Origin: an uncultured Clostridia bacterium
GTDB taxonomy: Bacteria; Bacillota; Clostridia; Christensenellales; Christensenellaceae
Assembly (NCBI GenBank): GCA_944347775.1
Contig: CALVMT010000084.1
Location: 1 to 46,964, forward strand
DNA length: 46,964 nucleotides
Direction of reading: 5' to 3'
Shown here: positions 37,395 through 41,960 of the stretch, one piece after another
How the letters are laid out: every line of letters starts with the position of its first letter
Position numbering within the stretch: the stretch's first letter is position 1
Notes under the pieces: generated by a model
Database searches by the model: none
What the model was told of the DNA's origin: nothing
What the model saw: the letters and a program-made list of their open reading frames with translations, nothing else
Program-made: the position numbers and the translations under genes

Positions 37395-37611
37395 AATTTA
37401 TATATCCCTTATTCCTTTCCTCTCATTCACACTTTGATAATATCAAACTTTTTTTTTTAGAACAATATCATTTTGCATAAATAGCGGCACAATCATTTTT
37501 TATGCATTGATAAGAATCTATAATTGGCTTTTGCCCAATACTTTATTTTATCCTATTAGAGGGATATCCATTTTTTTCGTTGCATAGATTTAGAAAAAAG
37601 AGGATTTAGCC
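37395..37611. other. Divergent intergenic region of nudC and the unknown gene
   Basis: Contains AT-rich promoter-like words but no clear single promoter that I can defend; no ORF or RNA. Confidence 0.4.
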
Positions 37612-38358
37612 ATGACATATCAATCAAGAAAATATCAAAAAATTTCCATGATTCTTAAAGGAAAAAAGATGGGTATATTAATTTTAGAAGAGCAACAAAA
37701 TCTTCATTATGAATTTAATTGTAATAGTACTGTTAATGACGGAAAATTGATACTATTCCTTAAAGATGGTTCATATGTTATTTTACCCGATTTAAATGGA
37801 GAAAGTTCAAAAATTCATCTTTCTTCTATTAAGGCAGCCGCATTATTTGAGAATTCCGAAGTAGTAATGAAATCACAATTAGGTTCTTTTAATTGGCCGG
37901 CCGCATTAAAAATGCTTAAACAACCACAAACGGAAAAAATACAGCCTGTATCCACTAATAATCCAACTAACGATAATTCCCCCTCACTTACTATGACTTT
38001 GAATAATTCAACGGAGCATAGCGATTGCCCATGTCAACAGGCAGAGCAATCTGTCTACTCTTATAATCCATTTTCTTATTATATCAAAAATGCCGTTTGG
38101 AAACGGATAGAATATCCTTATTTCGCAAACGGCAGTCATTATTTAGTAGGAGAAATTTTTGATCATGGAGTTCTAATCGCTACTGCCTTAGCAGTTCCCG
38201 GCGAATATGCAATAACCCCTCCTCCCTGGCTTAAAGGCTTTAATTGTTTTTTAAACAGTCTCCAAGATGCGCAGGGATATTGGTTGTTTGTCAAAGACTG
38301 TCAAACCGGCAATCCTGTTTCTATCCAATCGCTTGCCCAACGGGAAGCGCTGGGATAA
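37612..38358 (+). CDS. Uncharacterised two-domain protein
   Basis: A 248-residue soluble protein of unknown function. Its N-terminal third (1-100) is beta-rich; a low-complexity Asn/Thr/Ser stretch with a CPC motif (about 103-146) separates it from a C-terminal domain (about 155-248), in which VWKRIEYPYFANGSHYLVGEIF and VPGEYAITPPPWLKGFNCFL resemble a module common in clostridial hypothetical proteins. I do not recognise a named family. GAGG precedes the ATG. Its last 38 bases overlap the convergent veg gene, so simultaneous transcription of both strands is expected to interfere. Confidence 0.7.
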   Translation: MTYQSRKYQKISMILKGKKMGILILEEQQNLHYEFNCNSTVNDGKLILFLKDGSYVILPDLNGESSKIHLSSIKAAALFENSEVVMKSQLGSFNWPAALKMLKQPQTEKIQPVSTNNPTNDNSPSLTMTLNNSTEHSDCPCQQAEQSVYSYNPFSYYIKNAVWKRIEYPYFANGSHYLVGEIFDHGVLIATALAVPGEYAITPPPWLKGFNCFLNSLQDAQGYWLFVKDCQTGNPVSIQSLAQREALG

Positions 38359-38575
38359 CTTTTACTCTTTTAGTCAAGATTTCACTATACGAATAGCAAT
38401 ATCTGCGCGTATAACCATCTTGATCAGTTATAACAATAAAAATATCTGAGTAGACACCTTCCAAAATTCCAAAAATATCTATAATTTTATTTCTTTCACC
38501 AATAGCATAAAGGCGAACCATACAACCTTCATAATTGGATAAGACAGATTTTATATGTTTTAATTGGTTGGGCAT
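38321..38575 (-). CDS. veg: Veg family protein
   Basis: An 84-residue protein matching Bacillus Veg (DUF1021): an opening LKHIKSVLSNYEGCMVRLYA, a middle IIDIFGILEGVYSDIFIVIT and the SYSYSEILTKRVKV end correspond to conserved positions. Veg stimulates biofilm-matrix expression in Bacillus by affecting SinR; other lineages have not been studied. It is probably expressed from its own promoter: AGGAG lies 10 bases before the ATG, and a TATAGT (38622-38627) stands about 45 bases upstream. A DnaA-box-like site lies exactly where the -35 would be. Its 3' end overlaps the convergent unknown gene. Confidence 0.88.
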   Translation of the reverse strand: MPNQLKHIKSVLSNYEGCMVRLYAIGERNKIIDIFGILEGVYSDIFIVITDQDGYTRRYCYSYSEILTKRVKVIPALPVGQAIG

Positions 38576-38644
38576 TATATTTATTCTCCTTTTTATTCAT
38601 ATCATGCCCATATTTCCCAAGACTATACTTTTAAAAGTGCAATC

Positions 38645-38829
38645 TTATCCACTTATTCATTCAATCTTTGCCAAAAGAATAAATTTGTGCATAACTTATT
38701 TTTTCAATAGAAAGTTATGCACATTATCAACATAATTAATAAAAATCCATTGGATAAGCCATTATTTCTGTTGATAAATCCACAAAGTTATCAACAATAT
38801 CAACATTTTTTCTTTTTTATTGTGTATAA
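38645..38829. promoter_or_regulatory. Cluster of about eight DnaA-box-like sequences
   Basis: Within 185 bases between veg and spo0A: TTATCCACT (38645-38653, +), TTATGCACA (38686-38694, minus), TTATGCACA (38715-38723, +), TTATCAACA (38724-38732, +), TTATCAACA (38769-38777, minus), TTATCAACA (38788-38796, +), ATATCAACA (38797-38805, +) and TTATACACA (38821-38829, minus). Three fit the consensus TTATNCACA exactly, and the rest deviate by one base. The density is far above expectation even for AT-rich DNA. A replication-control or DnaA-titration site, or DnaA control of veg, are possible. No dnaA or dnaN gene is near, so it is probably not the main origin. Confidence 0.75.
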
Positions 38830-38874
38830 CTTATGTCTAAAACAGAAAAATCATAGCAAAAAATGAATATTCGA

Positions 38875-39645
38875 TTATGCAGATTGTTCGAGAGTTAAGC
38901 GATCTGCAATAAGAGCAATAAATTCTCCGTTTGTCGGCTTGTCATTTTTTGTATAAATATTATATCCGAATATCGTGTTTAAATTTTCAATTCTTCCTCT
39001 ATTCCAAGCAACTTCTATTGCATGGCGAATCGCTCGCTCTACTTTGCTTGAAGTTGTTTCAAAGTTCTGTGCAATAGTAGGATAAAGTTGTTTAGTAATG
39101 CTGTTAATCATCTCGGGCTCCTTAATTACAATTTTTATTGCTTCTTTTAAAAACTGATACCCTTTAATATGCGCAGGAATCCCAATAGAAAGAAAAATAC
39201 TTGTAATACGTTCATCTAATGATTTACTTTTTACCAAAGTTGTTTTTTTCTGTAGATTTAAGCTTCTCAAATCAAAAAAGTCCAATATTCTTTGATATAA
39301 CGTTTCCATAACAAACGGCTTGTTCATATAGTACGTAGCCCCAAGAGCAATCGCCCGTGCATAAAGGTTCTCACTGCTGATTGCTGAAAGTATAATAATT
39401 TTGGGGATTTCCCCGTATTCACCAGACGCAATCTTTTCCAACAAAAAAAATCCATCTGATTCCGGCATAATTAAATCCGCTACAATAGCATTGGGATGCA
39501 ATAGTTTAACCATTTCCAACGCTTCCTTTGCATTTTCCGCAATTCCGACTACCTCAATTTCCTGTTGTGAATTCATAAACTGACTAATTTGAGAAGCCAG
39601 TTCATGATTGTCATCTACAATCAACAATCTAATCTGCTTTGACAT
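38875..39645 (-). CDS. spo0A: Stage 0 sporulation protein A, master response regulator
   Basis: A 256-residue response regulator. The receiver domain (about 5-120) has the acidic pocket DD11-12, phosphoacceptor Asp57 (VADLIMP), Ser87 and Lys109 (MNKPF). The Spo0A-specific effector domain (about 145-256) shows GIPAHIKGYQFLKEAI, ITKQLYPTIA and the DNA-recognition helix region TTSSKVERAIRHAIEVAWNRGR. When phosphorylated it binds TGTCGAA-type sites and drives entry into sporulation. GGGAG precedes the ATG. In many clostridia spoIVB lies next to it; here it is flanked by the Gld-type operon and the DnaA-box cluster. Confidence 0.97.
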   Translation of the reverse strand: MSKQIRLLIVDDNHELASQISQFMNSQQEIEVVGIAENAKEALEMVKLLHPNAIVADLIMPESDGFFLLEKIASGEYGEIPKIIILSAISSENLYARAIALGATYYMNKPFVMETLYQRILDFFDLRSLNLQKKTTLVKSKSLDERITSIFLSIGIPAHIKGYQFLKEAIKIVIKEPEMINSITKQLYPTIAQNFETTSSKVERAIRHAIEVAWNRGRIENLNTIFGYNIYTKNDKPTNGEFIALIADRLTLEQSA

Positions 39646-39708
39646 ATACGATCTCCCAATTGATGAACTTTTTTTGCTGCAGCATTTGCCGTTTTCGGCT
39701 TCAATGGC

Positions 39709-39717
39709 ATTATATCA
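39709..39717 (-). promoter_or_regulatory. Extended -10 promoter of spo0A
   Basis: On the minus strand TGA-TATAAT (TATAAT at 39709-39714), about 65 bases before the start codon. A convincing -35 hexamer is missing. No clear sigma-H element or Spo0A box was found. Confidence 0.5.
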
Positions 39718-39770
39718 TGGTCAAGCCAAAAAAATATAGTTATAAAAAGTCATAAATTTTTTATTTTTTT

Positions 39771-39806
39771 AAAAATGCCCCTTTTTTTTTTTAAAAAGGA
39801 GCATTT
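39771..39806 (-). terminator. Terminator of the Gld-type ABC operon
   Basis: On the minus strand AAATGCTCCTTTTT pairs with AAAAAGGGGCATTT, followed by TTTTT. It lies directly after the last gene. Confidence 0.75.
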
Positions 39807-39810
39807 CCAT

Positions 39811-41253
39811 TCATTTTTTCCATTTTCTTGTCCGCATACGTATTCCAATGTAAAATACAGCAATCGGTAATAAAATCATTCCTGCCAGAATAAATAACCC
39901 TTCTGGTTTTAAATCCGAAAGCTGAAGCTCAGGAACCACTAACTCTTTACTCTCGATAGAAATTAATGTTTCTAATGGGGAAAGTTTTTTAAGCAGGTTT
40001 TCAAAAAACAAGTGATTTCCAGGAGCAGATAAAGCCTCATCACCAATACATTGAGAATCTGTAATCACAGCCAGTTGAGAAGTCACTTTTTCTGATAGGG
40101 CTCCAACAATAAATACACCTTGCCGATCCCCTTCCTGATAATTAAAATTTTCTATCTTACTGCTTAATTTCTTTGCAAAGCAATCTGAATCTGCTGCCAA
40201 TAACATCTGCACTTGTACCCCTTCTTTTTCCAAAAAACTAAGACTTGCCGCTTCATTTACAACAACAGACCAATGATTATCACATAATTCTTCCGTTAAG
40301 ACGTTCATTAAGGGCGTTGCCCGAAAAGATGTTCGCCGCAGATTGATTGAGTCTACACTTCGCGAAATAATCAGGTCATCATTAATTTTTATATTATAAT
40401 CGGCTAATAATTGAGAAAATAGTGGCATTTCCGTCGTATAAATCTGCAAAATACCCTGAGTCATATTAAAACTTGAACGATCCAAAAATAATAGAATACG
40501 CCCTCCCTGCTGCATAAATTGTGAAATTGTTTCATACTCACTATGTTCTAAGTCTGCTTTTGGTGAAACAATAACCAAAATATCTGTTTGGGCATCCAAC
40601 TGCTGTGTCGATGTAGACAGATCATAACTATCTATCTGAAAATTTCCGATATCCAATAATTGAATAAATCTTTCAAGTTCGTTTCGCGTAGTTTCTCCAT
40701 GCCCCGTTAATAAGCGTATATTACAAAACGCACCTCGAACTATTCCCTGTATTGCCGCAGTAATTTTTGTCTCTGCTTTAAAACTAATATTTTGCCCCTC
40801 ATCGTTTCTTAAATAGAAATCCTCATATGAAAAAATTTGCTCAATCGACCGATCTTTATTTGTAATAATTACACCGTTTTCTATATCTAACAGAGGAGGC
40901 CTCTCCGATGTCGATTGTAGTATTTCTTGCGACAAAAAAATTACTTTTACTTTAGATGATGATGCCCCGTATTCCGCCAATAGTTCTTGTATGCGAAAAT
41001 CAATATTTCCTGGGGAATAAATCATATAAATATAAATTTCTTCTTCCAAATTTTGTAAAATTTTGCATGTTTCTTCTGATAAGGTATACAATTTGTTTCC
41101 CGTTAAATCAATTTTTAGTGCTTTTTTCCTCTCTATGGAAGGAAAAATTATATTAATTCCGAAAATCAGAACTAAACATATACTAAAAAAAATATTAAAA
41201 CCGACGGTGTATCTATTTAAAATTTTATTTTTATGTTTTTTTATCCAATTCAT
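39811..41253 (-). CDS. GldG-like auxiliary protein of an ABC system
   Basis: About 480 residues. An N-terminal transmembrane segment (about 15-40), a large extracytoplasmic domain and a C-terminal segment (about 455-475, LFILAGMILLPIAVFYIG) followed by a basic tail match GldG-like proteins (ABC-type uncharacterised transport). Typical strands are LTGNKLYTLSEETCKIL, IYMIYSPGNIDFRIQELLAEY and LLTGHGETTRNELERFIQLL. The start at ATG 41253 overlaps the permease stop codon (ATGA) with GGAGG 10 bases upstream; the longer reading from 41271 includes that site. It is the last gene of the ATPase-permease-GldG operon. Substrate is unknown. Confidence 0.82.
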   Translation of the reverse strand: MNWIKKHKNKILNRYTVGFNIFFSICLVLIFGINIIFPSIERKKALKIDLTGNKLYTLSEETCKILQNLEEEIYIYMIYSPGNIDFRIQELLAEYGASSSKVKVIFLSQEILQSTSERPPLLDIENGVIITNKDRSIEQIFSYEDFYLRNDEGQNISFKAETKITAAIQGIVRGAFCNIRLLTGHGETTRNELERFIQLLDIGNFQIDSYDLSTSTQQLDAQTDILVIVSPKADLEHSEYETISQFMQQGGRILLFLDRSSFNMTQGILQIYTTEMPLFSQLLADYNIKINDDLIISRSVDSINLRRTSFRATPLMNVLTEELCDNHWSVVVNEAASLSFLEKEGVQVQMLLAADSDCFAKKLSSKIENFNYQEGDRQGVFIVGALSEKVTSQLAVITDSQCIGDEALSAPGNHLFFENLLKKLSPLETLISIESKELVVPELQLSDLKPEGLFILAGMILLPIAVFYIGIRMRTRKWKK

Positions 41254-41960
41254 GACCTTCTCTGCCTCCATATCCGCAAAGATTGCATCGTTAATAACTG
41301 GAACAATAACACTACCGACAATAGATAAATCATTGAAGAATAACTAAATAGCCCTGACTGAAATTCCGAAAAACGAGTAAACAAAGAAACTATATTAAAT
41401 AAGCGCTGGAATAACAAGCTTCCTATATACGGTAACAATGCATCGATCATCCACCAAGCAAACAACCCAGACATTGTCACTAACAATGCACGAAAAAGAT
41501 GAGAAGAGAGAGATGAAATAAATATACCAAAAGCGCAGACCGCGCCGCCAAGTAATAAAACCCCGATATAGAGCAGCAATAATTCCGTCCAATAAATGCC
41601 CGACAAAAGCATCATAATCATCGGGAATAATAACGTCATTGTGCAAAAAAACATATAACTAAAAAAAACAGCAAAAAATTTCGCCCACACAACCGTATGC
41701 ATATAAACTGCTGAAGAAAAAAGTAACCGGTCTGTTCCATTATATTTTTCTGAAGCAAAACTTCCCATCGTCAACAATGGAATAAAGAGTATCAGAATAT
41801 ATGAAACTTCTATAAATACAGTACGTATATTGACAATTTCCGAAGAAAAAAACACATTACTAAAGCGGAATCCACAATATAACATTAACCCTGAAGCAAC
41901 GATATATAATAATATATCATGAAAATAATGCCGCATCTCTTTTTTTATTATTATGCCCAT
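41250..41960 (-). CDS. ABC-2 type permease (GldF-like)
   Basis: A 236-residue membrane protein with six predicted segments. The opening GIIIKKEMRHYFHDILLYI is typical for ABC-2 permeases of the GldF/NosY type, as is the FIPLLTMGSFASEKYNGTDRLLFS block (about 60-83). The start is ATG 41960 or the TTG at 41969 (GGGGAGG nearby); the ATPase stop codon is 5 bases before the ATG. The middle gene of the three-gene operon. The partner ATPase is degenerate, so energisation is open. Confidence 0.83.
   Translation of the reverse strand: MGIIIKKEMRHYFHDILLYIVASGLMLYCGFRFSNVFFSSEIVNIRTVFIEVSYILILFIPLLTMGSFASEKYNGTDRLLFSSAVYMHTVVWAKFFAVFFSYMFFCTMTLLFPMIMMLLSGIYWTELLLLYIGVLLLGGAVCAFGIFISSLSSHLFRALLVTMSGLFAWWMIDALLPYIGSLLFQRLFNIVSLFTRFSEFQSGLFSYSSMIYLLSVVLLFQLLTMQSLRIWRQRRS

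Follow-up and report, generated by a model that had tools for sequence, protein, structure and literature searches.

Background

Clusters of DnaA boxes outside the replication origin are best known from Escherichia coli and Bacillus subtilis. In the latter, the six high-affinity loci outside oriC are the six DnaA-box clusters (DBCs) that are missing from a deletion strain. The high-affinity non-oriC regions listed for this species are sda, ywlC, ywcI/vpr, yydA, trmE, and gcp/ydiF, with spo0A absent from the list (PMC4447404), and deletion of all six clusters leads to early initiation (PMC5295017, PMC13220808). The gcp/ydiF region lies between the 3' ends of genes (PMC4447404), and sda is the route by which DnaA reaches Spo0A (PMC4447404, PMC5295017). 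The role of the B. subtilis clusters was rated as minor beside that of the E. coli sites in PMC5295017. In E. coli, the core of DARS1 and DARS2 has one DnaA box opposite two boxes of the same direction, and the essential boxes of datA share one direction (PMC5742627), while DnaA boxes are enriched near oriC, a distribution that favors titration (PMC12371093). The box consensus used here is that of work on C. difficile, in which three or more close boxes were regarded as a cluster (PMC7561715). At the level of listings and abstracts, the open-license literature contained no DnaA boxes beside spo0A and no work on DnaA in Christensenella.

The DNA analyzed here, referred to as the window, is the whole 46,964-nucleotide stretch of contig CALVMT010000084.1 from an uncultured member of the Christensenellaceae. 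The host is not a Bacillus; those of its near relatives that have names are uncultured Clostridia, Clostridiales, and Eubacteriales. An array of DnaA boxes between its veg and spo0A genes resembles the B. subtilis DBCs in that several DnaA boxes are found in one intergenic region away from dnaA, and, as in those clusters, three or more boxes are grouped outside the dnaA region. The array, which is read here from sequence alone, differs from the B. subtilis DBCs in its location at the 3' end of spo0A, in its repeated module, and in a spacing that is conserved between two genera.

DnaA boxes between veg and spo0A

The veg gene (38321-38575, minus strand; Pfam VEG, E 3.8e-15) is separated from spo0A (38875-39645, minus strand; Pfam Response_reg and Spo0A_C, the latter with E 2.3e-42) by an intergenic region of 299 bp with 24% GC, which the 3' end of spo0A faces. 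On the other side of spo0A is an ABC-transport auxiliary gene (39811..41271, minus strand; Pfam ABC_transp_aux), which by synteny is still next to the array in the related genomes G001 and G004, from which spo0A and veg are missing. Strict DnaA boxes were defined as TTATNCACA or TTATCAACA, and the weaker variants TTATCCACT, ATATCAACA, and AAATCCACA were counted apart. Six strict boxes are found inside 144 bp of the intergenic region.

One reading of the layout is a module that occurs twice and consists of a reverse box and, after it, two contiguous direct boxes; a last reverse box closes the array, and direct repeats of 23 bp and 29 bp underlie this layout. The first module begins with a reverse box at 38686..38694 (minus strand), followed by tandem pair 1 at 38715..38723 and 38724..38732 (both plus strand); the first two of these boxes are TTATGCACA, an exact TTATNCACA, and the third is TTATCAACA. 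The second module consists of a TTATCAACA reverse box at 38769..38777 (minus strand) and tandem pair 2, made up of TTATCAACA at 38788..38796 and the weak box ATATCAACA at 38797..38805 (both plus strand). A degenerate box, AAATCCACA, can also be read in the sequence at 38776..38784 (plus strand), where it overlaps the reverse box (TGTKGATAAATCCACA). The closing reverse box is TTATACACA, an exact TTATNCACA, at 38821..38829 (minus strand). Separate from the modules is a weak box, TTATCCACT, with one mismatch, at 38645..38653 (plus strand).

In dinucleotide shuffles of the 299-bp region, the mean number of strict boxes was 0.05 and the maximum 3, and none of 20,000 shuffles reached six. Over the whole window, 69 matches with no more than one mismatch were found and 68 were expected, which is no window-wide enrichment. 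The host genome (G000; 2.05 Mb in 172 contigs, 90% complete) contains 109 copies of TTATNCACA (places listed for 100) and 59 of TTATCAACA (all listed), or about one box per 12 kb. Among the places listed, only the rpmH-dnaA region (rpmH read by eye) equals the density of the array, with 5 strict boxes in 124 bp, and the next densest places, C80:55644 and C72:11930, have 3 boxes each. The cluster in the window is real and beyond chance. The two three-box groups (C80:55644-55675, L210, and C72:11930-11969, L211) lie between other genes.

A preliminary description of this DNA had counted eight boxes, three of them exact, in both orientations within 185 bp, and had asked how this density compares with the rest of the genome. 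The count was correct, the boxes being three TTATNCACA, three TTATCAACA, one TTATCCACT, and one ATATCAACA, and the genome-wide comparison given above bears out how unusual the place is among those listed. The same description had put a box over the -35 of a putative veg promoter. The overlap does exist, as the TTATCCACT box covers the -35-like hexamer in a candidate promoter of veg, at 38651-38622, that scores 9/12, but the promoter itself is weakly indicated: a promoter scan of the locus gave 6 matches, this candidate included, against 6.9 in shuffles, which is no excess, and the box at 38645 has no strict counterpart in the stretches of the relatives that were covered. No terminator-like sites were found in 38300-39750, where shuffles give 0.7. 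The sole Rfam match at 37400-39900 up to E 0.5 was to a snoRNA model at 38552-38628; it fell below threshold (26.2 bits, with a gathering value of 50) and was taken as chance.

Conservation of the array within the genus and family

A contiguous tandem box pair was present at the locus in all seven genomes of the window's genus (g1), and the reversed control pattern had no match in any of the 18 genomes of the family. With offsets counted from the first tandem box, the boxes in the window genome (G000) are at -29(-), 0(+), 9(+), 54(-), 73(+), 82(+, weak), and 106(-), and those in G003 are at -29(-), 0, 9, 55(-), 74(+, weak), 83(+), and 107(-). The pattern is common to both genomes, each having one weak box in its last direct pair. 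Five positions of the common pattern are strict in G008, which belongs to another genus: -30(-), 0, 9, 55(-), and 84(+). Boxes are found at 0, 9, 54(-), 73(+), and 82(+, weak) in G002, and at 0, 9, 55(-, weak), and 74(+) in G005 and G006. G001 has three strict boxes and G004 four, and both sets fit the second half of the layout, with steps of 46 and 19 bp as compared with 45 and 19 in the window. Contiguous tandem pair 1 is therefore matched as such in G002, G003, G005, G006, and G008, and the pair in G001 and G004 matches pair 2 by spacing.

The individual boxes could also be followed among these genomes. The first reverse box has counterparts in G003 (-29) and G008 (-30), and the reverse box of the second module is strict at +54/+55 in G002, G003, and G008 and has one mismatch in G005 and G006. 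At the position of the weak second box of pair 2, strict TTATCCACA is found in G003 (+83) and G008 (+84). The closing reverse box corresponds to TTATGCACA at +107 in G003 and lacks a strict counterpart in the stretches of the other relatives compared. In a seven-row alignment (A1), 15 of the 20 invariant columns fell in two box positions, eight in the second box of pair 1 and seven in the first box of pair 2, and the stretch read as the degenerate box was the same in G002 and G003. The spacing of the first module agreed within 1 bp among G000, G003, and G008. Across differences in base composition, the boxes largely keep their order and spacing, with a GC content of 37% in the window, 57% in the G003 stretch, and 47% in the G008 stretch. 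The sequences of G000 and G003 share only 57% identity over the 300 nt that follow spo0A, even with the boxes counted in; the 300-nt identity figures for G008 miss its array, which begins 266 nt after spo0A.

A spo0A orthologue is present in 13 of the 18 family genomes, and all but one of them (12 of 13) carry at least two strict boxes at this place. The 13 flanks contain 41 strict boxes, as compared with a mean of 0.42 and a maximum of 9 for 1000 permuted motif pairs, though these flanks are related, G005 and G006 being 99% identical there, and do not count as independent trials. In single genomes the counts can be less extreme: of 3000 shuffles, 1 reached the box count of G013, 6 that of G016, and 6 that of G017. 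Relative to spo0A, 32 of the 41 boxes are antisense and 9 sense. Strict boxes come directly after spo0A in 11 of the 13 genomes; in G002 they are displaced by one inserted gene, owing to which the stretch counted begins 1.4 kb after spo0A, and G015 has degenerate boxes only. The genomes of genera g4 and g5 have 2-3 strict boxes of the same direction, and the two-module layout is absent from them. No tandem match was found in the genome scan of G007, G011, and G012, which have no spo0A orthologue. These data show conservation at two levels: the array keeps its place and polarity over the family, and among the nearest genera its box order and spacing as well. The inserted gene of G002 (L147; seen in L036) has about 427 codons (MKQGNERSATW...), and the array still adjoins veg in that genome.

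Position relative to the replication origin

No dnaA gene was found when the window was searched with PF00308. The host genome has two PF00308 matches, of which the strong one is dnaA; both are on contig C72, separate from the contig of the array. The dnaA gene on C72 carries DnaA boxes of its own. When dnaA was sought by PF08299, it was found on a contig other than that of the array in G001-G005 and G008, and G006 and G011 gave no match. GC skew was negative in every 2-kb interval from 33 to 44 kb, without inversion at the array, and positive elsewhere in the window, at 15-18, 21-27, and 43-45 kb. On the evidence of the skew, which is not inverted, and of a dnaA gene that carries its own boxes on a different contig, the array is not oriC, and this identity was rejected; the array has neither a skew inversion nor dnaA and dnaN next to it. 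On both points, that no dnaA is near and that the cluster is a non-origin one, the preliminary description was right. A run of three DnaA-trio elements was not found at the array by a crude scan, which covered the rpmH-dnaA region as well, was equally negative there, and is therefore uninformative.

In genus g5, with oriC assumed to be at dnaA, the distance from dnaA to spo0A was available for five genomes, four of which have strict boxes: 147 kb of 2.56 Mb in G010, 255 kb of 2.97 Mb in G013, 258 kb of 2.77 Mb in G016, and, within one contig, 186 kb in G017 and 159 kb in G015, the one without strict boxes. In G018, from another family, the distance was 376 kb within one contig.

Neighboring genes and sporulation

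The gene next to the array is veg in five of the seven g1 genomes and FGGY-kinase-like in the other two, G001 and G004. It is serine-hydrolase-like in G008, a convergent rsmA-like gene in G009, a convergent HAD-like gene in G010 (the first large ORF), PadR-like in G013-G017, GNAT-like in G018, and sipL-like in G042 and G339, the names other than veg, spo0A, and sipL having been read by eye. With this variety of neighbors, no single gene always adjoins the array. Nor is the array just a promoter element, since the gene downstream changes among genomes and in two of them, G009 and G010, is convergent. The arrangement at sda, in which boxes are conserved upstream of one target gene, was not found here, since the downstream gene differs among genera.

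In G001 and G004, the array is at the syntenic place, with the same ABC-transport genes on one side and the same nudix gene on the other. Genome searches found no Spo0A_C and no SpoIVA match in either (completeness 97% and 85%), and the parts that were read, 18 kb and a 6-kb contig, showed no homologue of veg or sipL. SpoIVA was also without a match in all eight g4 and g5 genomes searched, including three single-contig ones. Six of these eight (G009, G010, G013, G014, G016, and G017) keep spo0A and strict boxes, G015 keeps spo0A with degenerate boxes, and G012 has no spo0A orthologue. G002 (80% complete) has spo0A and boxes and no SpoIVA match. SpoIVA is present in G000, G003, G005, G006, G008, G018, G042, and G339, so the array occurs both with and without it.

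Because the array is kept in relatives that apparently do not sporulate, a role in replication is more likely than one in spore formation. A sporulation switch as the sole function was rejected, as the boxes persist without Spo0A_C matches, SpoIVA matches, or both. From the position between the two genes, the preliminary description had proposed a link to entry into sporulation or to matrix formation, and this proposal was not supported by the comparison: the array is kept without Spo0A_C and SpoIVA matches in G001 and G004, and seven further genomes have spo0A and boxes without a SpoIVA match. Its other expectation, conservation between veg and spo0A, was borne out for the locus, which is kept in 12 of the 13 family genomes, but not for the veg side, which differs outside g1 and in G001 and G004. 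The array is thus a warning against inferring a link to sporulation from position alone. Since it is kept where the neighboring spo0A is missing, the deletion has in part already been carried out by evolution.

The presence of spo0A in genomes without a SpoIVA match, single-contig genomes among them (L156-L161 in genus g5 and L155 in g4), suggests that it has a role other than sporulation there. The gene is best explained as a long-standing neighbor of the array and not as its obligate target. TGTCGAA, the Spo0A-box core, was found in only 2 of the 13 family flanks (G003 and G008), and shared Spo0A boxes were rejected as an explanation. The host genome has four further Spo0A_C matches, on C5, C33, C68, and C103; that on C5 is a near full-length Spo0A paralogue with 35% identity, and the estimated contamination of this genome is 4.4%.

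Possible functions of the array

The box content and placement suggest that the array is probably a non-oriC DnaA-binding site that serves in titration or initiator control, of the type of the B. subtilis DBCs. DnaA would be expected to bind the boxes cooperatively. An array replicated soon after initiation would double early and take up free DnaA, and this uptake would help prevent premature re-initiation. In E. coli, the enrichment of boxes near oriC (PMC12371093) is similar in that the boxes in the relatives are fairly near dnaA, a position suited to titration; it is different in that the E. coli boxes are diffuse, whereas those here form one compact array. Titration alone does not explain why boxes come directly after spo0A in 11 of 13 genomes, nor the precision of the spacing. 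The array is a non-origin cluster of a known type with unusually clear evolutionary evidence, as it can be followed from genus to genus, its spacing holds despite shifts in GC content, and it persists where spo0A is missing. It offers a test of passive titrators against ordered regulatory assemblies.

Several other functions were weighed against this titration or initiator-control role. DnaA might control spo0A in cis, blocking read-through at its 3' end or controlling an antisense or 3' transcript, such that Spo0A output would follow the replication cycle. The location directly after spo0A in 11 of 13 family genomes, with one gene inserted in G002, the antisense orientation of 32 of the 41 strict boxes, the box pairs after spo0A in three other families (G018, G339, and G042), and the lack of a terminator-like site in 38300-39750 all fit such control, but the array persists in G001 and G004, which have no Spo0A_C match, promoter matches are not above those in shuffles, and the Spo0A-box core is in only two flanks, which together leave cis control a doubtful alternative. 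The sda checkpoint of B. subtilis, in which DnaA acts through Sda on Spo0A, is comparable as a case of DnaA boxes at a Spo0A-connected locus (PMC4447404, PMC5295017); here, in contrast, the boxes are 3' of spo0A, there is no conserved target promoter, and the boxes are kept in some genomes without Spo0A_C or SpoIVA matches. It is rather unlikely that the array changes the nucleotide state of DnaA, like DARS (reactivation) or datA (hydrolysis) in E. coli, instead of being a passive sink. The polarity of the module is that of the DARS1/DARS2 core, with box I opposite boxes II and III (PMC5742627), and appears as -29/-30(-), 0(+), 9(+) in G000, G003, and G008, where the first-module spacing agrees within 1 bp; however, the likeness is one of polarity only, E. 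coli is of a different phylum, there are two tandem modules here, and the polarity is absent in g4 and g5, where all strict boxes point one way. The flanks in g4 and g5 are like datA, another non-origin cluster, whose essential boxes have one direction (PMC5742627), again in a different phylum. The DARS polarity is a resemblance and not membership, and by analogy an active effect on the DnaA nucleotide state is possible. As a speculative extension with a similarly small chance of being correct, the array could be a two-module, DARS-like assembly site that is old and clade-specific and has outlasted the loss of sporulation, with Spo0A perhaps kept as a replication partner in lineages without SpoIVA, so that the array and spo0A would form a replication module separable from sporulation.

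The remaining explanations have far less in their favor than the titration or initiator-control role. That DnaA controls a veg promoter is very unlikely: a weak box overlaps the -35-like hexamer and veg is next to the array in five of seven g1 genomes, but the promoter matches number 6 against 6.9 in shuffles, the overlapping box has no strict counterpart in relatives, and a gene other than veg is next to the array in G008, G009, g5, G001, and G004. A second or relict replication origin, for which the AT-rich sequence and a box density equal to that of the rpmH-dnaA region might speak, is highly improbable given the uninverted GC skew at the array (negative from 33 to 44 kb), the shared direction of spo0A and veg, the dnaA gene with its own boxes elsewhere, and the lack of a DnaA-trio-like run, though the crude scan was equally negative at rpmH-dnaA. 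Chance accumulation in AT-rich DNA has a negligible probability; the intergenic region does have only 24% GC, but shuffles and permuted motifs fall far below the observed counts, arrays are found at loci with up to 57% GC, and conservation of the cluster in relatives refutes chance.

DnaA boxes at spo0A and elsewhere outside the family

The first 400 nt after spo0A were searched in 96 loci outside the family (104 located, 99 after removal of duplicates, less L046-L048), and 6 strict boxes were found in 4 loci (L054, L068, L011, and L022). L046, L047, L048, and L054 match G006, G003, G008, and G042, respectively; the family tally does not add them as further genomes. The box rate was 0.10 and 0.21 per kb in two 200-nt bins, as compared with 0.05-0.07 in the outer flanks, and the reversed control gave 2, which is a weak excess. 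A further 44 3' flanks of 400 nt each, 30 from the class and 14 from the order, contained one strict box in 17.5 kb. These counts do not support the array as a general feature of spo0A loci. The box pairs after spo0A in three other families are contiguous tandems in G018 and G339 and inverted in G042.

The contiguous tandem was found in 41 of 396 genomes of the order, at 48 places, and the reversed control at 10 places in 9 genomes. Thirteen of the 48 places are in the family and 35 outside it. Among 21 of the outside places that were examined, two are after spo0A (G339 and G018) and three at dnaN. Dense tandem arrays were also seen at L128 (family f4) and at L129, L133, and L135 (family f11), where queries for dnaA, dnaN, and spo0A were unmatched within the 3-kb loci; such clusters may therefore be widespread in the order. 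Within the last 800 nt up to the 3' end of spo0A, the loci outside the family had 19 strict boxes in 12 loci, and the reversed control had none. These 19 boxes are inside or near spo0A coding DNA, perhaps as a codon effect.
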